From Ulva prolifera (taxonomy: Eukaryota > Chlorophyta > Ulvophyceae > Ulvales > Ulvaceae): a DNA stretch of 64,000 nucleotides. The DNA lies in the NCBI GenBank assembly GCA_023078555.1, contig CM041196.1:9690985-9754984 (forward strand), in the 5' to 3' direction. Below the pieces are notes generated by a model. It was not told where the DNA came from and did not search any database. It saw only the letters and a program-made list of their open reading frames with translations. Below are positions 32,401 through 63,646 of this stretch, in pieces. Within the stretch, counting starts at the first letter, position 1. Each line of letters opens with the position of its first letter. The position numbers and the translations under genes were made by a program.

Positions 32401-33506
32401 GCGAGCACCAGCTGGCGTTCCTGCTGACACTCACGTCTGCCACTGACGAAGCCGATCGCCAGATTTGTAAGTTGCTGGGCACAAAATTTGAATTGTGGGG
32501 GGGCTGTGACAGCCGTGACATCAGTACACTGACAGAGAAGATTGAGGCACTCGAGACAAGGCGTCCCACGACTGGAGTCGGGACTGTTGTTCCTGTGGCA
32601 CAGACGACAGCTCAGCAGGCCCATGATCAGGACACAACCAAGCCACGAGCATCTGAGCAAGTGGGTGATGTTGCCCTTGACAACGCAGAAGAGGCCGCCA
32701 TAGAACGCCTGCGGGAGTCATTTTCCAGGGTCCGTGTGGCACCAGCCAACATGCGGACCGGGCCACTCAATATCATATTGCGTGCTACCGAGGAAACATG
32801 GACAAGTGTGCAAGCTGCACTCGTTGATCATCCATTGCCACCACAGCAGCAGCCGTTTCAAGGCGGGACGAATGGATCTCTCAAACGGATGAAGAGTTAC
32901 CTGGAGCGGTCAGGCAGGGCGCCCAGACACCAGAGTACCGCAGCAGCAGCTAGTACGACCGCCTGTGAGCAGACTGTCGCAGAAGTCACAGCAAGCCCGC
33001 AGAACGAAGCACATTTGCCAAACCTTCCGACAGATCAGAGTACATTTCAGAACAGCAAGCAGCTGCAGCAGCAGAGGACTGCGAAAAGATCCACACAGGC
33101 CAACAGAAACCAGGCTGCAAAGGTGCCGAATCAGACGACAGTTCAGAACAGCGAGCCAACGAGACCACCCACGCTGCAGCAAAATCTCCAGCCACAATAT
33201 CAAATGACGCAGCTGGCAGCAGATGGCCAGATATACCAGGCCCAGATGCTACAATATGAGCAGTGGCAGCTACAGCAGCAACTGCACCTGCAGAGATTGC
33301 AGCCACAACAGCAACAGCAGTATCAGCAGCTACAACTGCTGCATCAAATGCAGCCACAACAGCAACAGCAGTATCAGCAGCTACAACTGCTGCATCAAAT
33401 GCAGCCACAACAGCAACAGCAGTATCAGCAGCTACAACCGCTGCATCAAATGCAGCCACAACAGCTGCATCAACCATTTCAGCAGCAGCGGCTCCGTGAG
33501 CTTTAG
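29405..33506 (+). CDS. MULE-type transposase (DDE) with SWIM zinc finger, one frameshift
   Basis: This is a Mutator-like transposase or a protein derived from one. Exons are 29405-30214, 30289-30634, 30761-30983, 31081-31258, 31348-31613, 31700-31951 and 32023-33506, all GT-AG with matching phases, about 1185 residues. The N-terminal zinc-type region has C-x-x-C-K-K-G-C-I-Y-C-F and a later H-x-E-H. The catalytic core shows F-M-D-A-S-H (first Asp, about 436), L-V-D-N-S-N-A-E-I-K-A-I (second Asp, about 509), the family's C-M-W-H-V, and T-T-A-H-C-E-G-F-H (Glu, about 630). A SWIM finger C-S-C...C-E-H follows near 807-820. The C terminus is Gln-rich with a 51-bp repeat. One extra base near 30430 breaks the frame inside exon 2; without it the frame runs through. 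The start at 29405 is the first in-frame ATG and is uncertain. I did not find terminal inverted repeats. Confidence 0.88.
33300..33480 (+). repeat. 51-bp in-frame Gln-rich repeat, three copies plus a partial
   Basis: Three tandem 17-codon units (P-Q-Q-Q-Q-Q-Y-Q-Q-L-Q-L-L-H-Q-M core) at 33300-33350, 33351-33401 and 33402-33452, then a partial unit, encode the C-terminal tail of the transposase. Confidence 0.92.
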
Positions 33507-42687: not shown

Positions 42688-45600
42688 TCACACGCGGCTG
42701 TCGACTAAACTGTCATACAGAGACATACACAAGCTGCACCTGCATGGCACCTGCTCAGCACGGCAGTCGGAGCCATGCCCCTCATGCCCACAGCCATGCA
42801 TCCCCGCAACAGCCAGCGGACACGCGGCCACGCTCACGTCCCAGTGCGCGGCTAGAGAAAAGACATCAGCCCCCACCGCCAGCGCCCCTCCCAGCCGCAC
42901 CTCTCGCAGCTGCGGCATAGAACAAACGGCCACCTCCAACAGCTCCGGCTTCAGGGGGCCAACCTGGAGGCTCCAGCCCTTACTCTCCCATTGAATTTCG
43001 TGGCAGCGCAGAGTCAGTGATGACAGCTGAGTTAGGCCATCACCTTGGCCCTGAACACTCTTTATCGCGTCCCAGAACGCCTTGCGCCCCAGCTGCTCAC
43101 CCCGGTGCCCACTCACCACAAGGCCTGACGAGAGGTCCCACAGGTGCATCGGAGTAACGCTCTCAAAGTCCAGCTCGAGCTGTGTCAGGCCGGTGAGCTC
43201 CCGGAGGCCTCGCGTAATCTCTTCGATGTTGAGCTGTTGGCGCCGTGGGGAGCTACACGGTGTGGAGCTCTCACACTCACTGCAGCACTGAATCGCCAGC
43301 CGCCGCAAGCCATGCAGTGGCCACAGGTGCTTTACGAAGCGGCCTGCCCCGGGCATGAATTCCGAGTCTTGCGCATTGGTGAAAGTGAAGCATAGCGCTG
43401 TCAGGCGGGGATGCAGCTGCAAGGCGGACGCGAGGCGTTCCGTTGGGACTGCTGAGTTGCCACCGCCGATGAGCGTGAAATCGCGGAGCGCCGTGAGTCT
43501 GGTTCCCGACGCAACAGCGCACGCGACCACGCCCGCGGCGGAGCGCTCAATGTCGGCCACAGTGAACTTGCCCCCCGCCCGGGCAATCGTCAGCTGCGCC
43601 AGCGCCGGCAGTCTGGAGATCGCTGCAATGAGGTCTCCAGTGTTGTGCGCATCTTCTTTCAGGCCGAACAAGGAGAGGGTGGTGAGGTGGCGTGCCGCAG
43701 CGAGCGCCGGCGTGAGTGCGGCCAGCGTTGTAGAGCAACACCAGCGATTGCACGAGGAGCTGCCCTGCAGGCTGAGTTTGAGGGCACGCATGTGTGGCAT
43801 GCATGTGAGCGCGCGCCCGAGCGCCGGCAAACCGAAGCATGGTCCGTAGCGGACAAGCGTCAGACGGGTCGGGCGCACGAACGCTTTGGAATGGTCCTGC
43901 AGCGCGGGTCCGAGACCGCTCAAGCCGGCTGTTTTCGGCCACCGGTCGCGAGCGCTCAGCTCCAGGTCACGCAGCTGTGGCACCGCAGCAACCGCGGACA
44001 CCAGCTGCCGCAGCATCTGTGCACTCCTGTCTAGGTCGATTGCGCCAACACGCATGCCGACAAAGCGCAGCATGGACAGCACGGGCAGCGTCGCGGCTGC
44101 GCGCCCAAGTGCGGCCACGTCCCCCACGGCGGCCCCCTCGATATCTAGCTGTTGCAGCGCCGTGAGCGCTCCCATGAATTCCGCCAATGTGCCGCTGACG
44201 TGGGGCGTAAGGCCATCACCGCTGAGGCAGAGGCGCGAAAGGCGCGACAGGGTGCAGATCTGCCCCACCAGGGCCGCTGCGGCAGTGGGATCGCATGCTC
44301 CTCCTTGGGTATCTGCCATCACTTGACCTAAGTGCAGCCGAAGATTCTCCAGTTCTGTGTTCCGCGCGAGCCCGGCCGCCATGTCGCGCGTGAGTGCTTG
44401 AACGCCACAAGGTTCAGCGTCGCTGCTGTCGAGGCGTCGGAAGGTGAGGTCGAGCGATCGCAGGTGCGCTGGGGAGAAGGCAGCGCGCACAGCACGCTCG
44501 ATGTCGCTGCGACCCTTGCGTGTGCCGAAAGGTCTGCCTATGCTCTGGCGAACGTCGACAAAGTCCAGCCGGACCGCCGTCACGGCGTCCAGGCGGGAAA
44601 GCGTGTCCGCCACGCACGCAGCCTCGCTGGCGAGATGAATAGTAGCGTCAAGCGTCCCGCCTATGCAGGCCTGGACGGCGAGTGCGCGGAGGTGGGCGGG
44701 CATGGCGGCCAGAAGCGGCTGCACCCCCGCGCCCGGCACGAGCGCCGCATGCATGAGGGATACTGCCACTTCGGTGGGGACGGCTGCCACAACCTGCGCC
44801 GCCGAATGCTTTCACACTGTTCACGGCCGGTGCCTCCAACATAGCTGGTCGGGGTCAGCATTAGCCCACCTGAGCTGCTGGTTTGAGGCATGTATTCTGG
44901 CACGTTGTATGCCATCAGGCGGCCGTGGCCCCCGTCAAAATGCGGGCGGGGATGAGAACATATCCATATGCTGAGCCATGATCCGCATCGAGGAACGCGC
45001 AACACACACGGACGGATGAAAATGAGATCGCAACAGAGATCCGTAGCGTCCACGCAGGCTGTTGGGAGTGCAAGAGGGTGGTGGATACGCATATACAGCG
45101 AGGGGCGCGCGGGTCCGCTGCTACCCCCTCCCCCCCACCCCCCCCACACACAAAACAACACGTCCTGAACACCGCTGATGCGCATCGCCGCGTGCGTTGA
45201 TTGTGAGTGGTTTAGCCAGCATTCAGAATCAGAGTATACCCAGCATGCACAGCGCAGCGCAGGCGCCGCACAGCGCCGCACCTCCTCTAGCCACCGCACG
45301 GCGTCCTCTTCCGCAAAGACGCAGGCCTGTTCGCCCAACACCTGCGGGGGGTGTGCGAGCGTATCAGGGCAAGCACAGCACAGCAGGCACGGCAGGCGCA
45401 GCAGCGCGGTGGGTGCGTTGCGGCTGCGAGTTGCCTGCGGAGCCTGGTGCCCCTGGTGGACATCTCGGAGGTGCCCGGGGGAGGCCACGGCCGGAGCGCC
45501 GCCGGTTGCGGCACCCTCGGGGGTCGGGCCGGAGGGGCCGCAGCTGGGGCTGCAGGGGGGGTCGGGGCGTGCTGCGCGTGCTGCGCTGAGAGCTGCACGC

Positions 45601-46612
45601 ACCGCAGCACGCACCGTGCTGCGCTTCACCGCGCACAGGCGCTGCACGAGCACCGTGTCTGCCATCGTGTCGGCGGCCTGCATGCGTGCAGGCCGGTTCA
45701 GCGGCTACATTGAACAAGCCATACAAATAGTGATGCTGATCTGGTTTTGACCGGATTCCGTGAGCAGCGTCGTTGATACATCAGCGCTAGCATGGCAGCT
45801 GCCACGGCACAGGGCAGTGGCAGCACAGCAAGATTAATTGTGTGTCCGCCACGGCGGCGCTCGGCCGAGAGAAGGTGCGTACATGGGTGGGAAGTCAAAC
45901 ACACTACACATGTGCATGCTCAGTCTTGCAGTGTCTCATGTGTTTTGCATAGCATGCTCAGGACTTCTTCGGCATGAGCTGCGTGAGCTGCATGAGTCGC
46001 GGATGCATGGAGCTGCAGGTAGCTGGAGCGGGGCACGCAAACAATGCTTCAGCTGTCTGCCGCGGGTTTCTCGGCAAGCATCCTGTGCCTCTCGAAGTAT
46101 GTGTGTAAGAGCTCTCGGGGGGACTGCCACGTGCAGCTCGGGGCTCACACGCACGCCCAGGTGGGTGCACAACGCACATACGTATGGCCGCATAAACGAG
46201 AAACACGCGCAGCGTGCACGATTGCAGCCAACACGGGCCTCCACAAGGCATTCAATCAGCCCTTCAAGTCTTCGAAGCAGGCCTGACATGACGATTGCAG
46301 GTATGCGTTGCGTACCACCAGCGTTTGCGCTAGCTGCAGCGAGGACGTGACGAGGTGTCGGAGCGGCCAGTACTCCATTCCGGAGTCAATGGCCGCAAAC
46401 CACACGTCAGCCATCGCTCGAGTGAGCGGCAAGGGGATGCTGTCACCTTCAGATGCAGCCTCCGCGATGTCGGCTAGGACGTGGCTGCGTTGCAGCACGG
46501 CAGGTGTCACTACATGCACTGCGCTGCGCCCTGTCAGCTTCAGCAAGCCACCTGGCTCCACAGTCAGATTTGCAAAAATCGAATCTGTGTCTATAGGAAA
46601 GTCCGGATCCAT
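42688..46612 (-). CDS. SKP1/BTB-like-LRR protein, array member 1 (fused exon 2-3)
   Basis: Minus-strand exons are 46612-46316, 45677-45282 and 44793-42688, giving 932 residues. Exon 1 carries L-K-L-T-G-R-S...V-T-P-A-V-L-Q-R-S...I-P-L-P, then S-S-L-Q-L-A-Q-T-L-V; exon 2 continues A-A-D-T-M-A-D-T-V-L-V-Q-R-L-C-A. Joined, this matches the SKP1/BTB pattern in which a helix L-I-L-A-A-N-Y-L follows the fold. A Pro/Ala-rich linker ends in W-L-E-E. The last exon (about 700 codons) is built of irregular leucine-rich repeats of ribonuclease-inhibitor type (L-x-x-L-x-L...) and ends with P-C-R-C-S-L-C. The second intron found in the sister genes is absent here: the donor position reads ATACGC and the frame runs through in 396 nt. 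Ubiquitin-ligase adaptor function is inferred only. Confidence 0.78.
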
Positions 46613-46677
46613 GTCGGAGGCGGTCTGCGGGTGTCGATCGCGACTCCTAGCGGTATGTTGTACTGTCCAGCAAAGAA

Positions 46678-46690
46678 TGGCACGAGCTCC
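46678..46690 (-). promoter_or_regulatory. Conserved 5'-flank element, member 1
   Basis: Plus-strand TGGCACGAGCTCC lies 66-78 bp upstream of the start codon of member 1. The same core (GRCACGAGC) stands at a similar distance from the starts of members 2, 3 and 4. It may be promoter or 5' UTR; it may also be simple residual identity after duplication. Confidence 0.5.
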
Positions 46691-47933
46691 CAGCGACCGT
46701 CGGCGATGTGATCAATCGATTACTGATGAAATTCTAATTCGAAGATTGGACTGTGCACACACACATGATGCATTTGGCACCACCGCGCTTGACACGGTCA
46801 CAGAGTCGCGTCGTCGACGCTTGCTCAGCTTGATCGGAACGACCGGAACGACACATTTCTGGTCGTGGTGAGACCTTTAAACTTCAAGATGGTCGCGTTG
46901 CAGTCATGCATTCACCTGCGCAATGCCCAAGTGGAGCTTCAGCGCCAGGTGAGCATCTTGAGATGCGACCGAGACTCCGCGGCAGGTATGTACGGCGAAG
47001 GTGGAGGCGGTGTGAAGCACGGTGGCTGGACACCGGTGAGCGGCATCACGCATGCACCGCATGCGTGCGTGCTCTCTGACCTTGCCCGGACCAGGCTGCA
47101 CCTCCGGCCACAGGCATATCGAATACTGATTATCTGCGCAGTACGCACGATCTTGCCGCTGCCTGCATCGCCTGCAGCCTACAGCTCCGGAACTGGCCCT
47201 GTTGGCACAAGTGTGTGGTGTCGGCATTGACTTGAGAATGCTGCGCGGGGGAGACTCCGTGTGGAGGTTGGCAGGCGTGTGGATGCACATGTGGCCGCGG
47301 GGCGCCCTGCACTGCACCCATGTCCGTGAAGCAGAGGCATGTCAAGTATGCTATGCACCGTAACAAGGCGCATCACAGGTGTACGTCAGCACCGAGCCCC
47401 TTGCATCGAGGCCTGAGTGAGCTCGATCTGGAGAGCCAGTGACAGCCACGGGGCATGAATGCTCCCCATCAATGCTGAGCCCAATGTGCGTGGCACACTG
47501 ATTGAGGGTGTTAGGTCGTTGCAGAGGCGAGGCGCCCGATCTCGTTGTTTCCCTGTTTCTACGAGAACGCCTGACACACAGCTGCGTCGCGTTGGGGCGA
47601 TGGAGGCAAGCATGTGGATCCCGAACCAGCACCACGCGGTGCTTCAGGAAGGCTTGTGTACGCCTGGGCGCGTTCAACACGGATCGTGGGTGGTGTGCAT
47701 CACCACGGGGTCCGTGCTCTGCTGCCGGGAGGCCAAGCGGGAGCCAACGGCCGCAAAGGCCCACCCCGCAGGCTGTGCGCCACAGGAACTGGCGGCCGTG
47801 CTGGTACCAGCACCGGTGCGCAAGGCTGCAAACCCCGTGAGAAACGTGTACATGGATGCATGGCGGGGATGACGACCGATGTACGTGCACGTGTGCGGAC
47901 ATGTGTGTGCGTGCGAGCCGCAATTGCGTGTGG

Positions 47934-47934
<1 letters not shown>

Positions 47935-48032
<98 letters not shown>

Positions 48033-48110
48033 CGTGTGTGCGTGTGCGTGCGCGCGTGTGTGTGCGTGCGTGTGCGTGTGCGTGCGTGTGCGTGCGTGTG
48101 AGACGCACTT
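47935..48110. repeat. (GT)n microsatellite, about 175 bp
   Basis: A pure GT/TG run occupies about 47937-48027 and then becomes interrupted with GC steps (GTGCGT variants) to about 48110. It lies between array members 1 and 2. Open frames across it are artefacts of the repeat. Confidence 0.97.
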
Positions 48111-48470
48111 GCGTGTGGACACAGACAGAGGGGCAGGTGGTACTGCAGGCACATTGCACGACTGCAGAATAACGAGGACATGCCCCTGCACAGCAGTGTC
48201 GGGTCATCCGGCCCGATCACATAGAGCAATTCCGAACATTCAGATATAGTTTCGGGGTAGCAGTCCTGGAAATGCTGCAAAGCGACCCCACACTGCTGCA
48301 CTGTGTAGCACACACCGTGGGACCGGCCGCAGTGTGGGAGCGGCTGCATGCAGCAGGCTGGTGGCGGCTTGAACACCTGCGTACACTACATGCACACCCG
48401 TGGCTGTTGTGCACACTTGCCTGACACAGACGGATATACATCACTGCTGAACATCGCGGGAAAGTGCGCG

Positions 48471-51400
48471 TCACATCTGGCCGCCATACATCAATCTGTC
48501 ATACGCAGAGATACACAAGCTGCAGCTGCACGGAGCCGGCTTTGGACGGTAGTCCGAGTCGCGCTTTTGACGCCCACGCCCGTGCAGCCCCGCAACAGCC
48601 AGTGGACACGCGGCCACCCTCACACCCCAGTGCGAGGCCAGAGCAAACACATCAGCCCCCACCGCCAGCGCCCCTCCTAGCCGCACCTCTCGCAGCCGCG
48701 GCATCGTACAAACAGCCAGCTCCAGCAGCTCTGGTTTCAGGGGGGCGTTCAGTAGACCGCGGCCCTGCACCCACTCAACCTCGTGGCACCGCAGTGTCAG
48801 CGACGCAAGTTGTACCAGGCTGTCCCCGCCGGAGAACACCTTTGACGCTGCGCGCGTGTACTCCTGGCTTACCAGCCGCTTCCGCAGATCCCCGGTCACC
48901 ACAAGCCCTTCCGCAAGCTCCCACAGAGACTCACTGGTCACGCTGCCCAGGTCGAGCTCAAGCTGTGTCAGAGCGGTGAGCTGCCTGAGGCCGTGTGCAA
49001 CCTCATCAATGCACCTGACCCGCCTGCGCTGGAGAATCGTACCAGGCGTGGGACACCCCGGCCCGAACTGAATCGTGAGCTGCCGCAGGCCATGCACTTG
49101 CTGCAAGCCCGATGCAACGCGGCCTGCCGTGGTTGCATCCTGGGTGTCCTTTATGCCAGTGAATGCCAGTGACAGCGCTGTCAGGCGGGGAAACCGCTTC
49201 AGCCAGGCCACGATCCGTTGCCCGCTGTGCCCGAAGAGGCCCACGCCCATGAGCTTGAGGCCGCGGAGCGCGGGGAACACAGTATCGGACGCGGCGTCGT
49301 TCGCAAACGTGCCTGGGGTGAAGCTGCGCTGGAGGGTGTTGTCGGCCACAGAACACGCCCCCCCCGCCGGCGCGAGTGCCAGCTGCTGCAGTGCCGGCAG
49401 CGCGGAGATCGCTGCAATGAGGTCTCTGCCACGGCGCGCGTGGTTGTGAATGCCAAGGAGGGAGAGGGCGGTGAGGGCTGACGCCACAGTGAGCGCCGGC
49501 ACGAGCGTATGCAGTGCTGCGTAGCAGCAAACATTGTCGACACGGGAACAAAAGTCCTGGCCCTGAAAGACGAGCTTGATCGCACGCATGTGTGGCATGC
49601 ATGCGAGTGCGCGCCCAAGCGCAGGCAGGTCGCGGCATTGCCCGTACCGGTCCAGCGTCAGGCGGGTCAGGTGCAGGAAGGCAGTCGCATGGTCGTCAAA
49701 TGCACGGCCGAGCCCGCCCCAATCGGCCGGATCCGGACTCTGATCGTCAGCGCTCAGCTCCAGCTCACGCAGCTGCGGCACCGCCGCGACCGCGCACAGC
49801 AGCTGCCGCTGAGTCCGCATGCCCCCCTCCGCCTCGGTTGCTACGCTGTCGCCATGCATGTGGCCGGCATGCATACGCATGCCAGCAAGGCGCAGCGAGG
49901 ACAGCACGGGCAGCGCAGCGGCCGCGCATGCAACGGCGGCTGCACCGGTTAGGGTGGCCACCTCGACGTCTAGCTGCTGCAGCGCCGTGAGCGCTCCCTT
50001 GCACTCGGCCGATGCTCCGCTGACGTGCGGCACGATGCCGCCGCCGCTGAGGTGGAGTCGCGAGAGGCGCGGTAGGGAGCAGATCTGCTGCACGAGCGCG
50101 GCTGTGGAATCGCCTGCAGCGCTTCCCGTCGGTTGCCCTGCCGCGTCTATGTGCAGCCGCAGGCATTCGAGGGCCGTGCTCAGGGCGAGCCCGGCCGTCA
50201 TGGCGCATATCGGTACCGCGATGCCACAGGGTTGACCGCCGCCGCCGTCGAGACGACGGAAAGTGAGGTCGAGGGACTTCAGGTGCGCTGGGGAGAAGGC
50301 AGCACGCACAGCACGGTCGATGTGGTCCCCCGCGCAGCACGTGGTGGCAGCCGTGGATGTGCTCTGGCAACCATCGGCAAACTCCAGCCTGACCGCCGAC
50401 ACGCCGTCCAGTCGCGGCAGAGTGTCTGCCACACAGCAAGCATCACTGGCACAGTGGATGGTGGCATCAAGCGCCTCATCTATGCAGGCCTGGACGGCGA
50501 CCGCGCGGAGGTGGGCGGGAATGGTGGCCAGAAGCGGCTGCACACCTGCGCCCGGCACGAGCGCTGCATGCATGAGAGATACTGCTACTTCGCGGGGGAC
50601 AGCGCTAGCCGCCACAACCTGCAACGCCGCAGGCCGTCACACTGGGGCATTTATCTGCTTGTGACGGCTTGGATTGCAGAAACCAGAAAGCTTCTGGGAC
50701 AGCGGTGGCTCCCGTGAGCCGAGCCAAGGAGACCGGAGGTCGTGCTGGCACCCCGGAACTCAAACATACAATGTAACACAGATGCTCTGCAAACTGGCTT
50801 GCGCAGCACACGTAGCGTGCACAGCACAGCACATGGGAAAACCAGCGCCACACCTGCTCCAGCCACAGCACTGGGTCCTCATCCGTGAAGACCCAATCCT
50901 GTTCGGCCCCGGCAGCAGCTGTGGCGGTCAGCGGGGGGTAGCTGGGGGGCGCAGCGGACAGGTGCCCGCCCGGAGTGGCGGTGCCGTCCGCAGCTGTGCC
51001 GTGTGCGGCGGTGACTGCAGCAGCACTCGTGGCCACTGCGGCATCCGTGGCACTGCCGTCCGCAGCTGTGCCGTGTGCGGCGGTGACTGCAGCAGCACTC
51101 GTGGCCACTGCGGCGTACGTGGCACTGCCGTCCGCAGCTGTGCCGTGTGCGGCGGTGACTGCAGCAGCACTCGTGGCCACTGCGGCGTCCGTGGCACTGC
51201 CGTCTGCCGATGTGCTAGGTGTGTGGGGGTGACCGTCCGCAGCCGCAGAAGACAGCTTCGGCTGTTTGTGTTCCTGGCGTCGGAGTCCACCCCCTGCAGA
51301 CGCACTCAGGAGGTGATAGATGCGGTGTTCACAAGGCGTTCCGGACTGCTGCCGCAGTTGATATGTACATGCATGCCATTCTCTAATGCACCCCAGATCA

Positions 51401-52940
51401 AGATCCACTGTTGACAACCTTGGCCATACGCAATGATGCAGCGCACATCTTGGCGGCCAGACAGAGGTTGGCCTAGATGTGGAATGGGGGGGGGGGTGAG
51501 CAGCCGCACCTGGGCGAGCACAGCACAGCAGGCGCAGCAACGCGTTGCGCACGTTGCGGCTGTGCGCCACCTGCTGGGTGTGGCGTTCGGCGTCGGCGTC
51601 AAGGAGATATGCGGGGGCGGCCGCTGCCGCCGTGCCGCCGGGATCATCACCCTCGGCGGTCGGGTTAGACGGGAGGGGGGCCTCGGCGGGGCTGCGGTGG
51701 AGGGCGGGGGGCGCTGGGCATGCTGTGCGTGCTGTGCTGAGTGCTGCACCCACCGCAGCACGCACCCGGCTGCGCTGCGCTACGCACAGGCGCTGCAGGA
51801 GCTCCGTGTCGGCCATGGTGTCGGCCGCCTGCATGCACTCGGAGCATTTGGATGTCACTCCATGCGTGAGCGTACAACACGCGGTGGCTGTCGGCCGGCA
51901 AAGGCGTGGCAGCATCGGCGGTACACCCGAGGCCGTGATGATGTCAACCATGTCGACACAGCCTTCACATGGTAGCACGCCATCTGTGTGAGAAGGAGGA
52001 AGGTGGCGAGGCGAGATGGGCAGCCCGCTACGTTGGAGGACTCACGCATTTGTGTTACCAACCACCTCGCTTAGCACAGGAGGCGGCCGTGTGAGTTGCG
52101 TACGGTCGTCTGAGGGGGGTTTCCAGGTGGTTTACCCCTTCGGCATATGTGGTCCCGTTAGCTCGCAGTTGTCAATGTCCAATACGATACGGCTCAGTAA
52201 ATTCAGATTTACTTTACTTTACCAAATGCACACTTTTGTGTGTGGAGGGGCTCCCTTTTGTGTATACAGTGCACGTGTGTCGAAGAGAAGTGACCATGCA
52301 CTGTGTTATGCCAGATGTCGCTCTCCATGCCCGAGTACTTGTGCTGCACCAGTCGCGGACGCAGCTGGCACCTGATGCGGAGCAACATTGATGCAGTATC
52401 TGCGACCCATGCAAGAATTACATCTGGTATGCTATGGAACTGGGAGTGGTCGCAGAATTGACGCCATCTGCAGCGAGGCCTCAGTTCGTGGCTCACAGCA
52501 GCGATTGGTTGGGCCAAGCGCAAGCGGGAGGTTCGCAGTCTACACCATTGTGTGTCAAGTGGCCCTGCTCACTTCAGTCAAATAGGCTCCTGAGCTGGAT
52601 CAGGCAGGTCCTACGTACGGTGTTGCAGGGATGCGTCGCGTACCACCAGCGTTTGCGTGAGCCCCAGCGCAGACGAGCCCAGGCGCCAGAGCGGCCAGTG
52701 TTCCATCTCGGCAGCGATGGCCGCAAGCCATGCGTCAGCCATCGCTCGAGTGAGTGGCAAAGGAACTGTAGCACCTTCAGATGCAGCCTCAGCAACATTG
52801 GTCAGAACCTGGCTGCGTTCCAGTATAGCAGGAGTCAGCACATGGACGTCGCTGCGCGCGGTTAGCTTCAGCAAACCGCCTGCCTCGACAGTGAGAAATG
52901 CAAGAGCTAGACTTGTGTCTGCAGGAGCTTCCGGTTCCAT
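48471..52940 (-). CDS. SKP1/BTB-like-LRR protein, array member 2
   Basis: Minus-strand exons are 52940-52644, 51828-51510, 51293-50854 and 50618-48471, with phases 0, 1, 0, giving 1067 residues, the longest of the four. Exon 1 has G-G-L-L-K-L-T-A-R-S, V-L-T-P-A-I-L-E-R-S and V-P-L-P; across the intron it reads L-T-Q-T-L-V then A-A-D-T-M-A-D-T-E-L-L-Q-R-L-C, the SKP1/BTB-like close. Exon 2 ends L-L-R-L-L-C-C-A-R-P. Exon 3 is a linker with three 24-residue Ala-rich repeats and ends V-F-T-D-E-D-P-V-L-W-L-E-Q. Exon 4 begins V-V-A-A-S-A-V-P-R-E-V-A-V-S-L-M-H-A-A-L, continues with ribonuclease-inhibitor-like LRRs and ends P-C-S-C-S-L-C. Intron 1 contains the dispersed element at 52139. Confidence 0.8.
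50990..51215 (-). repeat. 72-bp in-frame minisatellite in the linker of member 2
   Basis: Three near-identical 72-bp units (DNA core GTGACTGCAGCAGCACTCGT) encode 24-residue repeats (A-T-S-A-A-A-V-T-A-A-H-G-T-A-A-D-G-S core) in exon 3. Confidence 0.92.
52139..52218 (+). repeat. Dispersed element, copy 2 (intronic)
   Basis: An 80-bp near copy of 13444-13526 (TTCGGCATATGTGGTCCCGT through TTACTTTAC) within intron 1 of array member 2, in antisense orientation to that gene. Confidence 0.8.
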
Positions 52941-54126
52941 CTCGATGGCAACGTGCGGTACCGATCCCTAGCGCTTAATTGCACCGCTCGCAGAAGAACC
53001 TGGCACGAGCGCCTGCCCAAAGATCGTCAGCGATACAGCAAAGCAAGTAACAGGATTAGTATGACGAATCGTACAGGATGCATTCAGAGTCTAGGACTTC
53101 AGACATTTACTCCATCCGGCACGATTGCCGCTTCACCCATCTCGAATCATGCAGCGCCAGCGTCGATATTGCCGTTTGGCCAAGGCCTGCCTACAGCCGG
53201 CGCCGGGGCGACACATAAATCAATATTACAGAGCTTGGCCAAGCACCATGATGCCCGGGACGTCCGGCTGCAGGTTCGGGTATAACGGCCAAACGCGGCG
53301 TCATGGAAGCTTGGTGCGACGGCATGCTATGAACGATGAAGGTGGGCGCGGTGTGAGCCGGGGCCCTGAATGCTGAATTGGGGCCCAATGGGGTAGCTAG
53401 GCCAGCGGAGGCCGCGGTGAGCTGAGTCACAGGAGCTTCTGGCATGCATGCTGTCTACCGAACGTTCGTACTTGGTACCAAGTAGGAATAGCCTCGGTCA
53501 AGCCCGGAAAGGAGCTAGCCATACTCAATCCTGGACTGCTCTCTGCGCGTTTACATGGCTGGACCAGGCTGCACCTCCAGCCACAGGCATGAGCTGTACC
53601 CTCTGCTGAACTGGCACGGTGCCGCCGCCTGCTTCGGCTGGGATGCGATACCCGCCATGGTCCTGCCGTGATGCGATGTCGGTGTTATCATTAGAAAGCT
53701 GCGCGGTGGTGGCTGCCGTGGCTGCGACTGCTTGGGGGTGCTGCGCACGGTAGCCACTGCGTTGACGTGGGTGTGGTATAATGACAAAGTCAGAGGCAAG
53801 GACACGTCTCCAGTCTCGTTTCGCTCGCTCCACGCGCGGCACCAGGTTGCGTCATGTTCATATGTACGGGGCTGCGGAGACAACATCCCACACCCCAAAT
53901 CAACAACGCAGTGCTTCAGTAAACTTGTGCATACAGTTTCAGCCTGTCAATCACAGCTCCTGGTCCAGCGCCGCACTCGTGGCTCCTTCGCACATCTACC
54001 CGAGCGCGGAGATACATCACTGCCGCATATTGCATTGGCCCCGGCACCCAGAGGCACCGGTGCTAAGTGGCTATGGCCATGCATGCATGCACACACACCG
54101 GCATAACAGAAACACAGCGCACCACG
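52941..54126. other. Spacer between array members 2 and 3
   Basis: It contains the conserved 5' element of member 2 (TGGCACGAGC, 53001-53010) and a second conserved block at 53563-53590 (GGCTGCACCTCCAGCCACAG), shared with the spacers at 47089 and 58668. No exon is recognised. Confidence 0.6.
53001..53010 (-). promoter_or_regulatory. Conserved 5'-flank element, member 2
   Basis: TGGCACGAGC on the plus strand, 61-70 bp upstream of the start codon at 52940. It corresponds to the elements at 46678, 58244 and 63718. Confidence 0.5.
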
Positions 54127-57100
54127 TCACACACCACCTTCCACCAATCTGTCGTACACAGGGACACACAAGCTGCAGCTACACGGAGCCTCTGGAAGGC
54201 ACAAGCCACGCCCGCGACGCGAGCGCGTGCGCACACCCGCAACACCCGCAACACTCAGCGGACACGCAGTCACGTGAACGTCCCAGTGCGATGCCAGAGC
54301 AAACACATCAGCCCCCACCGCCAGTGCCCCTCCTAGCCGCACCGCCTGCAGCTGCGGCATCGCACAAACAGCAACCTCCAGCAGCTCCGGGCTCAGGGGG
54401 GCGCTCAGATATCCGCGGCCTTCCACCCACTCAACCTCGTGGCAGCGCACCGTCAGCGACGAAAGCTGCACCAGGCTATCGCCATCGCAGCAACCCTTCG
54501 CCACCCTATCTTTGGTACACTCCAGCTGCTCCCCCCGCTCTCCTACGACCACGAGCCCTGCCGCAAGAGTCGACAGCGACGGCGTTGCCACCCTGTCAAA
54601 GTCCAGCTCTAGCTGCGTCAGGCCGGTAAGCTGCCGGAGGCCGCATGCGAGTTGATCAAAGCGCGTCTCCTGGTCCTTTGCACTCTCGGTGGCTCTTCCG
54701 CGCGCGCAGTGGCACTGGATTGTCAACCGGCGCAGGCTGTTCACAGGCAACAGGCTCAATGCAAGGTCACCGACCATGAGGCTAGAGGCGGTATCTGGCA
54801 TAGAAGTCCAGGCCAATGTCAGCGCCGTCAGGAGGGGGAGCTGCTGCAGCGATTGCACTAGTCGTTCCACGACGTCCCTTGGGATGCCTCCGCCCGCAAG
54901 TTTGAGGTTGCAGAGCGCCGGGAAGCGGGTCCCGGAGGCGATGGCGCGCGCGAGAGTGCCCGCGGCGGGGACCCGGAAGGCGCCGTCGGCGTCAGCGGAC
55001 GTGGGCCGAGGCGCCGCGAGTAGCAGCCGCTGCAGTGACGGCATGTCACCGATCACTTGGTAAAGGACGGCAGCGTGCAGTGGGTAGAGCTGGAGGCCGA
55101 GGAGGGAGAGGGAGGTGAGGCCGGAGGCCGCGGCCAGCGCTGGCGCAAGTGCCAACAGCGCGCCAGAGCAACACTCGTGTTCGATTCTGGGGCACGAGTA
55201 GTGAGCCTGGAGGACGAGTTTGAGGGCGCGCATGTGTGGCATGCGTGCGAGCGCACGCGCAAGCGCCGGCAGATTGCAGCATTGGCCGTAGCGGATAAGC
55301 GTCAGGCGGGTGAGGTGCACGAGTGCAGGCACATGGTCTTCAAACGCGGCGCCAAGCGTGCCCCAGCTCGTGACCTCCGGCCGCCGATCGTGAGCGCTCA
55401 GCTCCAGCTCACGCAGCTGCGGCACGGCGGCGACTGCTGCAACCAGCTGCTGCAGCAGCCGCGGCGCCGCATTCGCCTTGGCCACGCCACCCCCTCCATG
55501 CATGAGGCCTGCACGCAGGCCAGCAAAGCGCAGTGCCGAGAGCGGCGGCAGCGTGGCAGCCGCAAGTGCGAGGGCGGCTGCGCCGCTCAGTGACGCCCCC
55601 TCGATGTCGAGATGCCGCAGCGCCGTGAGCGCTTCCATGCATTCGGCCAAAGCGCCGCTGACGTGGGGCACGAGGCCGTCGCCGCTGAGGTCGAGGCGCG
55701 ACAGGCGCGGCAGGGTGCAGATGTGCCGCGCAAGATCCGCCGCGGAGTAGCCGCATGTGACATCTCTTGAGAGGTGTGCCGCGCCTACGTGCAGCCGCAG
55801 GAACTGGAGTCGCGTGCTCCAGTTGAGTCCGGCCGCTGCGGCGTGCATTGGCGCTGGGATGCCGCAGCTGTTGAGACCCCTGAAGGCGAGGTCGAGGGAC
55901 TGTAGGCGCGCTACGGAGAACGCAGCATGCACAGCACGCTCGACTTGGCCCCCGCCACTGCGTGTGCCCTTGAAAACATCGGCAAAGTCCAGCTTGAGCG
56001 CCGTCACACCGCCCAGGCGCGGGAGCGTGTCTGCCACGCAGAGCGCCTCGCTGGCGCGGTGGATGGTGGCGTCAAACATGCCGTCTGTGCATGCGTGGGT
56101 GGCGAGCTCCCAGAGGTGGGCGGGAATGGCGGCGAGAAGCGGCTGCACCCCTGAGCCGGGCACGAGCGCCGCATGCATGAGGATGTGCGCTACTTCGGTG
56201 GGAACGGCCGCCACAACCTGCACCGCCGCAGGCTGTCACAGAGCACCAGGAACCTACTTGATATGGCCTGTATTGCGAACCAGAAACAGCTTTGGGGACA
56301 GTTGCGGCTGCCTTGGGGCCGAAGGCCTCCGCCAGGGATGCCAAAGAGGTACCGGCTGCTAGGACCTGACACTGACGATGCACAGCCAATTCTATGCAAA
56401 CGTTTTGAGACGTAGAATACACAGCATGAGCATCACAGCACAGGGGGGCCCCGCAGCGCCGCACCTGCTCCAGCCACGGCTGAGGATCCTCATCCGAAAA
56501 GACACAGCCCGGTTCGACCATGACTTGCGCCCCGGCGCCGGCTGTGGCTGTCATCGGGGGGTGGCTGGGGGGCCCTGTCACAGGCGCCGCGCACAGGGCC
56601 AGCGCCGCGCCGGCTGTGGTTGTCATCGGGGGGTGGCTGGGGGGCCCTGTCACAGGCGCCGCGCACAGGGCCAGCGCCGTGCTGGCAGTGGGCGTGCCGT
56701 CCGCTTTGGTGCTGTCTGTCGCAGGCTTCACAGCCGTGCCTGCAGCAGTTGCGAGAACACTGGCGGCTGCTGATCCTGTGGGTGCGTGGGGGTGACCCCC
56801 CGCAGCCGCTAGAGACGGCTCTGGCTGTTTGCAGCCTTGCCGTGGCGATTCGCCGCCTGAAGGCGCACGCTTGTAGTGATTGATGTGGTCGACATACCAC
56901 ATCATATGTCCTATAACAGCACTCCAACCAGTGCCGCAGTGGTTACAGACACGTATGACGAGATGTCCCGCACCATGGTTTCAACACGAGTCCAGGGTAT
57001 TCTCAGATTGTCCTGCGACATACAGCTTGGCAGGCAGTTTTTGGCGCAAAGGGTGGGTGCCCGGGGAGTGTGCGAGCGTACCGGGGTGAGCACAGCACAG

Positions 57101-58178
57101 CAGGCGCAGCAGCGTGCCGGGCGCGTTCCGGCTGCGCGCAGACTGCGGCGTCTGACATCCGGGCTTGACGTCTGGGCGATGCCCGGTGGGGGCTGCTGCC
57201 GGCGTGTGGCTGGGGCAGCTCTGGGGCCTGGGGGACGCCGGGCGTGCTGCGCTGCGTGCTGCAGCCAGCGCAGCACGCACCCTGCTGCGTTGCGCTGCGC
57301 ACAGGCGCTGTACAAGCTCCGTGTCCGCCATGGTGTCGGCCGCCTGCATGTTCCCGGCCTGGATCAGCGTCTCTCCAGGCAAAGACAATCCGCGGTCGCC
57401 TTCGGGCTGCTGAGTGGAAGAATCGGTGGCATGTCAGCAGCCGCGGAACAAGGGTACGCACAGTGCACACAGCAGCACCAAGCCTTGAAAAGGTACTTGC
57501 CTGATGCCTTGCAAGGTGTGTGTGTGTGGTGATTAGGAAATTGACGCAGTGCACACGTACATGTTAACTGAATTCAGTTGTGAATTACCGTGTCTGCTCC
57601 AGATCTGGTTCAGACAATTGCTGGAAAAGTCGATGAGACCAGGCAGCTCGAGATGCGCAGAGAGTTCATGTATCGTGATTTATTTGCATGAATGATGTAG
57701 AGCATCTCCTACGAGTGACATGCGTCGTGGAGGCAGTTCCATCTTGAGGTTTCACTTCGAGGCTCACACCTCATTCTCAACCTGAAGCGGGAGGTGCGCA
57801 AGGCGCGCAATTGTTGCCAATAGACCCTCCTAAATTCAGCCAGATAGCCGTATGTGGTGTTTTCAGTGAAGCGTCGCGTACCACTAGTGTTTGCGTGAGC
57901 TGCAGCGAAGACGAGCCCATTCGCCAGAGCGGCCGGTGCTCCATCTCGGTAGCGATGGCCGCAAGCCACAGGTCCACCATCGCCCGAGTGAGCGGCAACG
58001 GTACTGTGTCATCTTGAGAGACAGCCTCAGCAATATCGGCTAGTATGTGGCTGCGTCCCAGAACGGCAGGTGTCAGCACATGCACTTCGCTGCGCCCTGC
58101 TAGCTTCAGCAACCCGCCTGCCTCGATGGTGAGAGATGAAATCGAATGACTTTGGTCTGCAGGGACGTTCGGTTCCAT
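54127..58178 (-). CDS. SKP1/BTB-like-LRR protein, array member 3
   Basis: Minus-strand exons are 58178-57882, 57343-57082, 56856-56465 and 56217-54127, phases 0, 1, 0, giving 1013 residues. Exon 1 has G-G-L-L-K-L-A-G-R-S, V-L-T-P-A-V-L-G-R-S and V-P-L-P. The intron 1 join gives L-T-Q-T-L-V-A-A-D-T-M-A-D-T-E-L-V-Q-R-L-C. Exon 2 ends L-L-R-L-L-C-C-A-H-P. The exon 3 linker contains two 24-residue repeats and ends V-F-S-D-E-D-P-Q-P-W-L-E-Q. Exon 4 starts V-V-A-A-V-P-T-E-V-A and carries LRRs such as L-S-R-L-D-L-S-G-D-G-L-V-P-H-V and L-T-R-L-T-L-I-R-Y, ending P-C-S-C-S-L-C. All reading frames are open. The function is unknown; the domain plan suggests protein recognition coupled to an SKP1/BTB-type partner surface. 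Confidence 0.8.
56530..56685 (-). repeat. 72-bp in-frame duplication in the linker of member 3
   Basis: Two adjacent 72-bp units (containing GGGGGGTGGCTGGGGGGCCC) encode A-L-A-L-C-A-A-P-V-T-G-P-P-S-H-P-P-M repeats in exon 3. The unit length equals that in member 2 but the sequence is different. Confidence 0.9.
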
Positions 58179-58876
58179 GTCGACGACAGCGTGCGGATGC
58201 AGGATTCCGAGCGGTGTAATTGCACCGCTCAGGTCGAAGAAGCTGACACGAGCCCCAAAGGATCATCGGCGTTACAAATCCTACACATTCGAGAGCTAAA
58301 ATCTTGACTTATACAAAATAAATGTAAACAGGTGCTCCTTACGGCACTCTTCGCGCTTCACACAATCGCTGTTGACCTCTGCAGCTGGGCATTGCCGCTC
58401 GCAACGAAGTTTTGCTGAGCTTCGTCAATCCTATCGAGGTCAGGGAGTCGCTCCAGACAGCATCTGCGTGTGCGATGGCCATGCGGAGCATTCGCGCCAA
58501 GTAGCGCGAAGGTGGTTGTGCTTGTTGCGACGGCAGCTACGAACTGCGAAGGTGGAACTGCCGGCGTGAGCCGCGTCTCGTCACGCGGACTACGCCACAG
58601 AGGACGCCGGTGAGCTGCCTCACAGCAGCACCACACGCGGACTCGTACTGCCATCGATAGCACAAGGCTGCACCTCCAGCCACACGCACGCTGAGGACCC
58701 TCTGCAGACTAGTAGGGTGTTACCGGCGGCTGCGTCACTTGCAGCACACACGTCCTGCCGGCCTGGTCGTGGAGCGGTTTCGGTTTCTGGCAGCCCAACT
58801 TGGGCTGGGCGAGGGAGGCTCCGCTCTGATACCAGGATTCAGACTTACATAGACTTACATACACGACTGCCCGACA
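58179..58876. other. Spacer between array members 3 and 4
   Basis: The shortest spacer, 0.7 kb. It carries the conserved element of member 3 (58244-58256, TGACACGAGCCCC) and the second conserved block at 58668-58690. No exon is recognised. Confidence 0.6.
58244..58256 (-). promoter_or_regulatory. Conserved 5'-flank element, member 3
   Basis: TGACACGAGCCCC on the plus strand, 66-78 bp upstream of the start at 58178. It has one change from the TGGCACGAGC core of the other members. Confidence 0.45.
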
Positions 58877-61800
58877 TCACCCACTACCATCTACCAATCT
58901 GTCGTATGCAGGTGTACACAGGCTGCAGCTGCATGGAGCCGGCTGTGGACGGCGTTCAGAGTCGGGCTCCTGATCCCCACGCCCGTGCAGCCCCGCAACA
59001 GCCAGCGGACACGCGGCCACGCTCACACCCCAGTGCGATGCCAGATCAAACACATCAGCCCCCTCCGCCAGCGCCCCTCCTAGCCGCACCTCCTGCAGCT
59101 GCGGCATAGTACACACGGCCAGCTCCAACAGCCTTGGCTTGAGGGGGCTGCTCAGGTAGCTGCAGCCTTCAACCCACTGAACTTCATGGCACCGCAGCGT
59201 CAGCGACGAGAGCTGCACCAGGCCATCATCAGCAGCGCCGAACTTCGCCGATGCTTCCCAGTACTCCTGACTCCTGAGACGCTTCCCCCGAGCCCCGGTC
59301 ACCACAAGCCCGGCCGCGAGCTGCCACAGCGACTTGGTGGTGACGCTGTCAAAGTCCAGCTCCAGGCGTGTCAGGCCGGTGAGCAGCCGGAGGCCGCACG
59401 CAAGCCGAGCGTAACCTGCGTCCCGGTCGGCTGCGCTCCCGGCGGCGCTCCCATGCTCGCAGCTGTACTGGATCGTCAGCCGCCGCAGGCCATGCATGTG
59501 ACACAGGCTTGATAAACAGCAGCGCCTCGTGAGGCTGTGGCCGGAGTCTGACACCGCATGGAAGCCCAGTGTCAGCGCCGTCAGGCGCATGTGCTGCCGC
59601 AACGCATGCGCGAGACGCTCTCCATCGTCCATCCGGAGCCGCCCGCCCATGAGCGCAAGATTGCGGAGAGCTGTGAAGTTGTTCTCGGACGCCGCGGCTT
59701 GCATCAGGGCGCCCGCAGTGTGGAAGGTCCGGCCGATGCCGGTCATCAGAGGCGTGTACCGCGGGCCGGCGAGCAGAAGTTTCTGCAGCGCCGGCAGCTT
59801 GGAGATTGCGGCGATGAGATCTCTGACGTGGCGCCCATGATCACAGACGCCGACGAGGGCGAGGGAGGTGAGGCCGGACGCCGCGGCGAGCGCCCGCGCT
59901 ACAGTACGCGCTGTTGTGAAGCAGCACGTGTACTGGTGTCTATTGCACGTGTCGTCGCCATGAAGGACAAGTTTGAGTGCGCGCATGCGTGGCATGCATT
60001 TGAGCGCACGCAACATATCCGGCAATATGTAGCAGTGCCCGCAGCGGACCAGGGCCAGCCGGGTCAGGTGTCTCAAGGCAGTTGCATGTTCCGCCATGAT
60101 CTGATCCGCCAGGATCAGGTGGAGCCTTTCCCAGCCGGCGGGCTCTGGCAGATGGACATGAGCGCTCAGCTCGAGGTCACACAGCCGCGGCGCAGCAGCG
60201 ACCGACGCGACCAGCTGCCGCAGGATCTGCGGTCCTCTTTCCGCTTTGGCAGCGCCACCGCCATGCATGCGGCCGCCATGGATGTCGGCAAACCGCAGCG
60301 ACGACAGCACAGGCAGCATGGCGGCCGCGTGTGCAAGGGCGGCAGCAACCCCCAGGGTAGCCCCCACCACATCCAGCTGCCGCAGCGCCGTGAGCGCTCC
60401 CTTGCATGCGGCCGACGCGGCGCTGACGTATGGCACGAGGCCGTCACCGCCTAGGCAGAGGCGCGTGAGGCGCGGCAGGGTGCAGATCTGCCGCGCCAGG
60501 GACACTGCGGCGGCGGAGCGGCAGCCTGCGGTCTCCCCTGACAGCTCTGCCACGTCTATGTGCAGCCGCAGACTCTGCAGTTGTGTGCTCTGGACCAAGC
60601 CAGCCGCAACGGCAAGCATTGGCGCTGGAACAATGCTGCAGTCGAGGCCTCTAAAGGTGAGGTCCAGTGACTGAATGTGTACTGGGGAGAACGCAGCATG
60701 CACAGCACGCTCGACTTCGCTCCCCCCGGTGAGTGCACTGCGGCATGCATCGACAAACTCCAGTCTGATGGCCGACACGCCTTCCAGTAACGGCAGAGTG
60801 TCTGCCACGCAGCAAGCATCCCTGGCGCAGTGGACCATGGCTTCGAATGTCCCGTCTTTGTTGCATGCCTGGATGGCGAGCGCGCGGAGGTGGGCGGGCG
60901 TGGTGGCCAGAAGCGGCTGCACGCCAGCGCCCGGCACGAGCGCCGCATGCATGAGAGCCAGCGCCACACCCGGGGGGGCGGCCATCACGACCTGCACCGC
61001 CGCACACACCGTCAGGCTGCGCCAGGCGCATGATTGATGGATGGTAACATTCGCATCGGTGCTGGGGAACATGCAGTGGCCCTATAGCAGGGAACTTGAA
61101 ACAGGAAAGCTGGGGGCAGCAGTGCCGACCACGAGCCGGAGCCTAGTGCATGAACAGCATGCGTGAATTGTGAGCTAGCCGGGCTGTGCAGCCCAGCTGT
61201 CAGACTACAGGGAAGCGTGAGTGGACACACCACCATACAGAGGCGCAGCATGCATCTACTCAGATACAACACACATGCATGTGAGCTGAGAGCGGGTGAT
61301 AGGTGAGGTTTCACTACAGTTTCCTCCTATGCACATGCATAGAAGGTGAGAGCGCCACGAGGGCGCTGACGATGCATGCTCCCTGCCGTGATCTGGGGGT
61401 TGACGATGTCACCTGCTCACACCTACATCCCAGGCACAGCACTTGTGCAGGGATGCCACAGTGTTCCGCCGATGCCTCTGTGACAGTTCAGCACAGCACG
61501 CACAGCATGCTCAACAGGCACAGCAGGGATGCCACAGTGCACCGCCGATGCCTCTGTGACAGTTCAGCACAGCACGCACAGCATGCTCAACAGGCACAGC
61601 AGGGATGCCACAGTGCACCGCCGATGCCTCTGTGACAGTTCAGCACAGCACGCACAGCATGCTCAACAGGCACAGCAGGGATGCCACAATGCACCGCCGA
61701 TGCCTCTGTGACAGTTCAGCACAGCACGCACAGCATGCTCAACAGGCACAGCAGGGATGCCACAGTGCACCGCCGATGCCTCTGTGACAGTTCAGCACAG

Positions 61801-63646
61801 CACGCACAGCATGCTCAACAGGCACAGCAGGGATGCCACAGTGCACCGCCGATGCCTCTGTGACAGTTCAGCACAGCACGCACAGCATGCTCGACAGGCA
61901 CAGCATGCAAAGCGCCGCACAGCGGGCCGCGCAGCCCCGCACCTGCTCCAGCCACGGCACCGCATTCTCGTCCAGAGAGACCGAAGCTCGTCCACCCCCA
62001 GCAACAGCTGGGGTGAACAGTGCGGGGTGGCTGGGGGGCTCTGCCACAGGCGTTGCTGGCAAGTCCAGCTGCACGCCCAGAGTGGGTGTGCCGTTTGCAG
62101 CCGAGCCATCTGCAGCGGCGTTTGCAGCAGTAGCCACAGCGCCGCGGACACTGGCGCACGGAGATGTTCCGGGTGGGCGGTGGCGACCCTCTGTAGCCGC
62201 CAGAGCCGGCGCTAGCAGCTCGCAGCCTTGACGCGGTGATCCGCCACCTGCAGGAGCATGCTGGTGGCCATGGCTACGGTCAGCACACCACATCATATGA
62301 TATTAAAAAGCAGCCGCAGTTGTTACATGCACTTCTGACGAGATGTCCCGCGCCGCGATCTGAGCACGTGTCCGTGTTATCCTGCGACATACAGCTCGGT
62401 GGACAGTGCGTGGCGCCGAGGGTGTGTGCGTGGCGAGGGTGCGCGCGCACCGGGGCAAGCACAGCACCGCAGGCGCAGCAGCGCGCGGGGCGCGTTGCGG
62501 CGGGGCGGCGTCTCCTGTCCGTAGCTGACGTCGGGGAGATGCCCGGGGGCGGCCGCTGCCTGCCCGCAACCGGGCGTGGCACCCTCGGGGGCGCCGTCGG
62601 AGGGGTTATCGCTGTGGTGCCTGTGAAGGTCGGGGGACGCTGGGCGTGCTGCCGTGAGTGGCGAGCGTGCTGCAGCTACCGCAGCACGCACCCGGCTGCG
62701 CTGCGCTGCGCATAGGCGCTGCAGGAGCTCTGTGTCCCCCATGATGTCGGCCGCCTGCACATGCATGCGCCCAGAATGATCCACCGGTGCAGCGGCTTGA
62801 TGCACGGACATCCTACAGTTGCCGAGGCACTGCGCGAGCAGCATTGCCGCGCAGCAGTATTGGAAGGTGGGTAGCGGCACACGGGCCTGGCAATATACAG
62901 CGTTCTCAAGGCTGCGCTCGGCCGAGACAAGGTGCGTATGCGGGTGGCAAGCTGCGATGCACATCAGTCTTGCATTTTTCAACTGTTTCGCATGGCATGC
63001 TATAGATCTCTTGTAGAAGTGTCTAGTGTAACTACTTTCGTTGTTCGAGGGAATACAGATCAAGCAGCTGGAATGGCACAGGCAGACGATGTATCAGGTA
63101 GCTGACTGCCGTGTGTATGTCATCAAGCATGCATCAGAAGTGGGAGACTTCGCAGGAGTGATGCCATCCGCAGGACCCCATTCGGCGCTCACAGCACGGA
63201 TCCGGATGTGGTTCAGGACCAGATCTGGTCTAGACTCAAGCGGGAGGTGCGCAGCGTGGATGATTACAGCCGAGACAGCCCTCAAAAGTCAATAGCATAC
63301 AGCCTCCTACGACATTATAGACAGGCTGTTTCAGACATGCGTCTCGTACCACCAGCGTTTGCGTGAGCTGCAGCGAAGACGAGCCCAGGTGCCAGAGCGG
63401 CCAGAACTTCAGTCCGGTAGCGATTGCCGCAAGCCATGCGTCAGCCATTGCTCGAGAGATCGGCAAATAGACATCGTCACCATCAGATGCAGCCTCCGCA
63501 ATATTGGTCAGAACCTGGCTGCGTTCCAGTACACCAGGTGTCAGCACATGTTCTTCGCTGCGCCCTGTCAGCTTCAGCAAACCGCCTTCCTCGACACTGA
63601 GACATGACAGGGCTGAGCCGTTTTCTGGAGCGATGTCCGGGGCCAT
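58877..63646 (-). CDS. SKP1/BTB-like-LRR protein, array member 4
   Basis: Minus-strand exons are 63646-63350, 62754-62451, 62247-61943 and 60991-58877, phases 0, 1, 0, giving 1006 residues. Exon 1 has G-G-L-L-K-L-T-G-R-S, V-L-T-P-G-V-L-E-R-S and Y-L-P-I in place of V-P-L-P. The join gives L-T-Q-T-L-V-A-A-D-I-M-G-D-T-E-L-L-Q-R-L-C. Exon 2 ends L-L-R-L-R-C-C-A-C-P. The exon 3 linker has no obvious internal repeat and ends A-V-P-W-L-E-Q. Exon 4 starts V-V-M-A-A-P-P-G-V-A-L-A-L-M-H-A-A-L, then irregular LRRs, then P-C-S-C-S-L-C-T-P-A-Y-D-R-L-V. Intron 3 contains a 76-bp satellite array just beyond exon 3. The frames are intact. Confidence 0.8.
61452..61910. repeat. 76-bp tandem repeat, about six copies
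   Basis: The unit has a CACCGCCGATGCCTCTGTGA core and a CAGCACGCACAGCATGCTCA tail, with a strict period of 76 (copies begin near 61452, 61529, 61605, 61681, 61757 and 61833). It lies in intron 3 of array member 4 and ends about 30 bp short of exon 3, so it sits at the 5' part of that intron. Copies differ by very few bases, which suggests recent expansion. Confidence 0.95.

Follow-up and report, generated by a model that had tools for sequence, protein, structure and literature searches.

We analysed a 64,000-nucleotide stretch of the genome of the seaweed Ulva prolifera (contig CM041196.1, positions 9,690,985 to 9,754,984; hereafter the window), in which an initial annotation had read four same-strand genes combining a SKP1- or BTB-like domain with leucine-rich repeats (LRRs). 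The array is present at 42688-63646 on the minus strand, its genes lying head to tail and named A to D in the order of transcription. Its limits are the first base of the gene A ATG (63646) and the last base of the gene D stop codon (42688).

Gene structure of the array

The four genes share one plan (Table 1). Exon 1 measures 297 nt in each and joins exon 2 across a phase-0 intron of 538-815 nt. The junction, running from GTG|GTACG to GCAG|GCNGCC and encoding TLV+AADxMxDTxLxQRLC, is the one originally proposed. Exon 2 starts with AADxMxDTxLxQRLC and continues as a variable Ala/Pro-rich linker; the exon-3 segment ends in WLEQ or WLEE, followed by GTGYGG. Beyond a further phase-0 intron (intron 3, 235-951 nt) lies the LRR exon, which was put at roughly 700 codons and in all four genes is open for 696-715 codons, with a TGA stop. 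Each LRR exon is open in one frame, the remaining five being open for at most 300 codons; 700 stop-free random codons at the local composition have a probability of ~1e-9, and the array holds four such frames. The anticipated C-terminal PCxCSLC appears as PC[SR]CSLC in all four genes.

Other details had to be amended. Exon phases of 0, 1, 0 hold for genes A, B and C, in which the phase-1 donor of intron 2 is conserved, but not for gene D. There, CCTGATACG stands where gene B has CCCGGTACG, the donor GT has become GA and the frame continues into the exon-3 motif. At 45320-45365, ~20 bases of gene D intron 2 have apparently been retained and the remainder lost, and this remnant, now read as protein, seems to be an intron turned into coding sequence. 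Gene C probably splices intron 2, but this is less certain because a single open frame spans its exons 2 and 3. The P-L-P of the described N-terminal block does not extend to gene A, which has VYLP.

At the protein level the four genes are 61-70% identical over exon 1; over the LRR exon this figure is 54-58%. The ratio of nonsynonymous to synonymous substitution rates (dN/dS) ranges from 0.41 to 0.82 in exon 1 and from 0.54 to 1.15 in exon 2, most of which is linker; the LRR exon lies at 0.51-0.57. The genes are under purifying selection. Intron 1, by contrast, gave one blastn match in six gene pairs at E ≤ 1e-3. Conservation therefore changes at the same borders as those read from the splice sites.

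Tandem repeats accompany these exons. Repeats of 72 bp (24 codons) separate exon 2 from the exon-3 motif in gene C (50975-51215) and gene B (56535-56691), and minisatellite expansion may lengthen the linker. Gene A carries six 76-bp tandem repeats, 98% alike, in its predicted intron 3 (61447-61905), and a long TG repeat lies between genes C and D (47937-48100).

Table 1 Positions of the array genes and their predicted exons within the window
Feature	Position	Strand	Description
Gene A	63646-58877	(-)	
Gene A exon 1	63350..63646	(-)	SKP1-like POZ core, 99 codons
Gene A exon 2	62451..62754	(-)	AADIMGDTELLQRLC helix and variable linker; phase-1 donor at end
Gene A exon 3, 3' end part	61943..61984	(-)	SVSLDENAVPWLEQ; donor GTGCGG
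Gene A LRR exon	58877..60991	(-)	704 codons, with stop
Gene B	58178-54127	(-)	
Gene B exon 1	57882..58178	(-)	
Gene B exon 2	57082..57343	(-)	
Gene B exon 3, 3' end part	56465..56503	(-)	VFSDEDPQPWLEQ
Gene B LRR exon	54127..56217	(-)	696 codons, with stop
Gene C	52940-48471	(-)	
Gene C exon 1	52644..52940	(-)	Structure predicted alone
Gene C exon 2	51510..51828	(-)	
Gene C exon 3, 3' end part	50854..50892	(-)	VFTDEDPVLWLEQ; shares one open frame with exon 2
Gene C LRR exon	48471..50618	(-)	715 codons, with stop; structure predicted
Gene D	46612-42688	(-)	
Gene D exon 1	46316..46612	(-)	
Gene D exon 2 and exon-3 motif	45282..45677	(-)	One open frame; intron-2 donor GT is GA
Gene D LRR exon	42688..44793	(-)	701 codons, with stop

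The family across the genome

Searches of the same genome (88.9 Mb, 44 contigs) with the POZ domains of gene C and of distant relatives yielded 27 exon-1 matches on contigs C1, C4, C7 and C9. Clusters lie at C1:9.73-9.75 Mb, C1:10.10-10.11 Mb, C9:0.61-0.67 Mb and C4:2.44-2.56 Mb. One search gave 15 matches at E ≤ 0.02 and another gave nine at E ≤ 1e-4, two of which (C4:2450215 and 2450786) are separated by only 0.3 kb. Three weak matches (C7:303392, C7:1651429 and the second gene in L048) were taken because an exon-2-like start follows a downstream AG, that of C7:1651429 (L051) being 3.6 kb away.

Outside the window, exon 1 ends in LxxxL followed by a phase-0 GT in 17 of the 18 cases examined, and by GC in L055. 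A pattern scan of the loci from L036 upward returned 20 exon-2-like starts, 15 of them family-like and 5 not; at five loci with an exon 1 (L038, L042, L044, L046 and L054), no such start was found in the stretch examined. The POZ domains of the distant clusters are 20-31% identical to that of gene C, and that such diverged members share the splice position points to a single ancient fused gene, not to genes that are neighbours by chance.

LRR exons were checked at part of the family loci. Pfam LRR families exceed their cut-offs at L047, L048 and L052; L043 matched no LRR family at E ≤ 1, yet is 51-52% identical to genes A-D. Against protein databases, a 939-residue model found one protein, through its LRR part only (scoring covered the 7997 candidates with most words in common). 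This 678-residue protein from an ENA contig (P0001) is 85% identical to the L043 LRR exon and 52-54% identical to genes A-D. A search restricted to residues 14-132 gave no match at E ≤ 10 from its 2483 candidates.

Far-diverged clusters repeat the same order, strand, splice sites and phase, in support of a SKP1-like domain and LRRs united in one gene, as first annotated, and on this sequence evidence that union is very probably the true architecture. The family is multigene, as the label 'expanding' implied. Several copies elsewhere in the genome carry stops, however, and because intact and interrupted copies coexist, birth-and-death evolution describes it better.

Some matches are mirrored: LRR frames at C1:4821629 and C6:34318 have equal scores, and POZ matches at C1:4704417 and C7:93581 also form a pair. 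The regions concerned (C1:4.70-4.82 Mb versus C6:34 kb and C7:93 kb) suggest that large segments close to the ends of contigs were duplicated, or that C1 contains a join.

The N-terminal domain and the LRR exon

We built a profile from the exons 1 and 2 of 18 spliced members, two of which have imperfect joins (L047 through one extra residue, L055 through its GC donor). Aligned in hhalign with 24 SKP1 sequences, residues 20-121 matched 7-128 colinearly with a score of 25.3 (E 0.0018, probability 14.6%). None of 200 column shuffles reached this score (best 16.2), and reversed profiles scored 14.6 and 15.3. Sub-profiles of the first 11 rows and of six distant-group rows retained scores of 21.8 (35 columns) and 21.2 (89 columns), respectively, and the full profile scored 24.6 against only four SKP1 rows. 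Against four BTB domains from the same genome it scored 14.1, within the range of 100 shuffles (best 15.5); this comparison is weak because SKP1 itself scores only 13.3 against so thin a BTB profile, and some kinship with BTB domains may exist.

A hidden Markov search with the family profile covered 3636 sequences, comprising the 24 SKP1 sequences, the POZ domain at C2:4190908 and the frames of fetched loci. It recovered C2:4190908 at 1.3e-7, and three of the 24 SKP1 sequences (2.4e-4, 0.0048 and 0.0082) ahead of the best clearly unrelated frame (0.013). SKP1 sequences were otherwise spread further down, 21 of 24 falling within rank 105 and all within rank 127. In a PDB sequence search, the best match was yeast SKP1 at E 0.62, SKP1 accounting for two of five rows.

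Single members matched no Pfam family naming a POZ domain, Pfam BTB (PF00651) was absent among the 18 members, and the window-gene POZ domains gave nothing named SKP1 or BTB above threshold, either as single sequences against Pfam or as profiles against the PDB. Foldseek, run with the gene C exon-1 model, gave no match at E ≤ 0.001 and no SKP1 or BTB among the best 50 of 175. This result is not a refutation, because the model has a predicted local distance difference test score (pLDDT) of 61 and lacks the exon-2 helix. The earlier SKP1/BTB-like label for exons 1 and 2 is thus upheld by sequence profiles with shuffled controls, which favour a SKP1-type over a BTB N-terminus on a thin BTB control, while structure lends it slight support.

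Related POZ frames occur outside the 27 matches. The POZ domain at C2:4190908 exceeds the Pfam Skp1_POZ cut-off (22.4 versus 21.9) and is not a window gene; its frame (L050 1708-2232) resembles the family and ends in VESLEAVLR, then GT, and no AAD exon was found within the stretch examined. A weak POZ-like frame on the plus strand of L026 (C9:3066394-3070653; MFLYDVIDSDAMTRSSVLSCVAEGG...; E 0.021 with the family profile) is located downstream of the copy at C9:3.065 Mb.

As modelled, the C-terminal part is an LRR solenoid of the ribonuclease-inhibitor/FBXL kind. LRR_R13L1 exceeds its Pfam cut-off in gene C, and LRR_14 matches gene B at 1.5e-8, below its cut-off. The gene C LRR model (Foldseek, VIA) resembles the F-box-LRR proteins TIR1, FBXL2 and D3/MAX2, and also NLRs and ribonuclease inhibitor.

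We also considered an F-box at the start of this fourth exon (LPEHLAIxxLRAAL...), where AAVPTEVAVSLMHAAL looks by eye like the beginning of one. The first 50 residues are predicted to form helices at 3-6, 9-20, 26-31 and 35-47 (pLDDT about 35-50), and VIA aligned the LRR model from residue 1 with rice D3 (6brp_D) from 24 and Striga MAX2 (9kll_C) from 57. Pfam, however, named no family, F-box included, in any of 10 LRR exon starts, and the score of 11.8 that a profile of nine F-boxes gave over 8 columns was matched by the top one of 100 shuffles. These tests thus lend the F-box reading no support.

A candidate one-chain cullin receptor and its alternatives

Cullin ligases acquire targets by receptor swapping. 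SKP1 adaptors and LRR target-binding receptors are normally separate proteins: CUL1 uses SKP1 and a separate F-box protein, and CUL3 uses one-chain BTB receptors, which commonly carry Kelch or other repeats. Each gene of the array would instead make one protein, with a SKP1-type POZ domain ending in a SKP1-like helix (LTQTLV-AADxMxD), the variable linker and the C-terminal LRR solenoid. The POZ domain would dock on a cullin, much like SKP1 in CUL1 complexes or BTB domains in CUL3 complexes, and the LRRs would present a target for ubiquitylation; no F-box would be needed because adaptor and receptor form one chain. By analogy with these ligases, we lean towards a cullin function for this one-chain receptor. 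We infer for the family a ubiquitin-ligase function, with its cullin binding, ubiquitin transfer and the nature of the targets, as well as splicing in vivo. If true, such a SKP1-type receptor would break the two-chain rule for SKP1.

The C-terminal part of SKP1 (PF01466), which includes the F-box-binding helices, matched only the canonical SKP1 gene, in two exons, when the genome was searched to E ≤ 10; the first helix of the family (AADxMAD) could be aligned with PF01466 through the profile comparison alone. Two observations tell against a cullin function. SKP1 contacts cullins through AANY, which genes A-D replace by AADT or AADI; four of the six distant rows have AADY or AAEY. Among the four window genes, the LRR face gave no sign of diversifying or positive selection (dN/dS of 0.40 at exposed LxxLxL positions, 0.20 in the core and 0.60 elsewhere), so that an arms-race receptor is not favoured, at least among genes A-D.

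The POZ domain might only dimerise or scaffold an intracellular LRR receptor for immune or self-recognition, with no cullin involved. In favour of this account, POZ and BTB domains often oligomerise, the search for the F-box-binding half found none in the family, AANY is altered in the window genes, tandem and interrupted copies in a multigene family are often seen among receptors, and the LRR model is also NLR-like. The same absence of diversifying selection on the LRR face speaks against it, however, as does the presence of F-box-LRR receptors among the closest Foldseek folds, and we regard it as rather unlikely. Should the opening 50 residues of this LRR exon be a degenerate F-box folded back on the POZ domain, one chain would hold a whole SKP1-F-box-LRR unit. 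The look of AAVPTEVAVSLMHAAL, the predicted helices and the two structural alignments fit this arrangement, but the Pfam and shuffle results and the low pLDDT make it improbable. More remote still is the idea that no fused protein exists, either because exon 1 is part of distinct small genes or because the array is decaying. It draws on the lack of transcript support, on the stops in related copies and on the five loci where no exon-2 start was found. It is countered by the intact frames of all four window genes, by the gene order, strand, splice sites and phase-0 junction repeated in clusters of such low POZ identity, and by P0001, which comes from another source.

The one-chain cullin receptor would operate in a genome that also holds conventional components. 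We found at least one canonical SKP1 gene with two exons, which matches P0015 (jgi/Ulvmu1, a code that presumably denotes Ulva mutabilis) at 96% identity across roughly half its length; its other named top relatives are from green algae. An Elongin-C-like frame, identified by eye, lies below cut-off. As lower bounds, there are at least 15 cullin matches at three places, at least 4 BTB matches and at least 18 matches to F-box-like PF12937 (17 above cut-off). A weld of SKP1 to LRRs in a green-seaweed lineage might have produced F-box-independent, one-chain cullin receptors that rival F-box-like exons in number and form a second, self-contained substrate-receptor system beside the SKP1-cullin-F-box (SCF) ligases. 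We offer this tentatively, as possible rather than probable; the comparison of 27 exon-1 matches with 18 F-box matches is rough because the former came from several searches and the latter from one model. A SKP1-type one-chain receptor, if real, would provide seaweeds with many candidate ligases or recognition proteins that are as yet unstudied.

Known systems share parts of this design. Like SCF ligases (SKP1 with TIR1/COI1, D3/MAX2 or FBXL2), the seaweed family has a SKP1-type POZ core and helix by profile, and F-box-LRR receptors are among the closest folds of its solenoid; it differs in being one chain rather than two, without a recognisable PF01466 half or F-box. BTB-CUL3 adaptors, as PMC4107866 describes them, likewise place adaptor and target-binding functions in one chain, but with a BTB rather than a SKP1-type domain. 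According to PMC4209131, the PEX1 family of Protochlamydia has an N-terminal BTB in all but three of 73 members, then C-terminal LRRs. It is similarly a large duplicated family, but it is bacterial, its domain is BTB and its members are suggested effectors. In Trypanosoma, TbCul-G contains Skp-1.3 together with F-box-lacking LRR proteins, for which a role as client-recognition subunits has been proposed; as PMC12816148 describes it, this also pairs a SKP1 paralogue with F-box-less LRR proteins, but as separate chains in one cullin complex rather than as a fused multigene family. For Ulva mutabilis, a likely NBS-LRR protein is reported in PMC8891106, and the main text does not mention BTB, SKP1 or F-box. 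Among the matches listed in a literature search on Ulva, green-algal SKP1/F-box/BTB and LRR, which covered few subscription papers, there was no SKP1-LRR fusion. This suggests that the fusion of a SKP1-type domain, as opposed to BTB, to LRRs is new here, BTB-LRR proteins having already been published.

To the left of the array, six of the 11 open frames of at least 220 codons in 1-42600 were scanned and matched no Pfam family at E ≤ 0.001. This part of the window also contains further direct repeats, at 21698-22107, at 33243-33497, and at 25612-25906 with 34692-34986.

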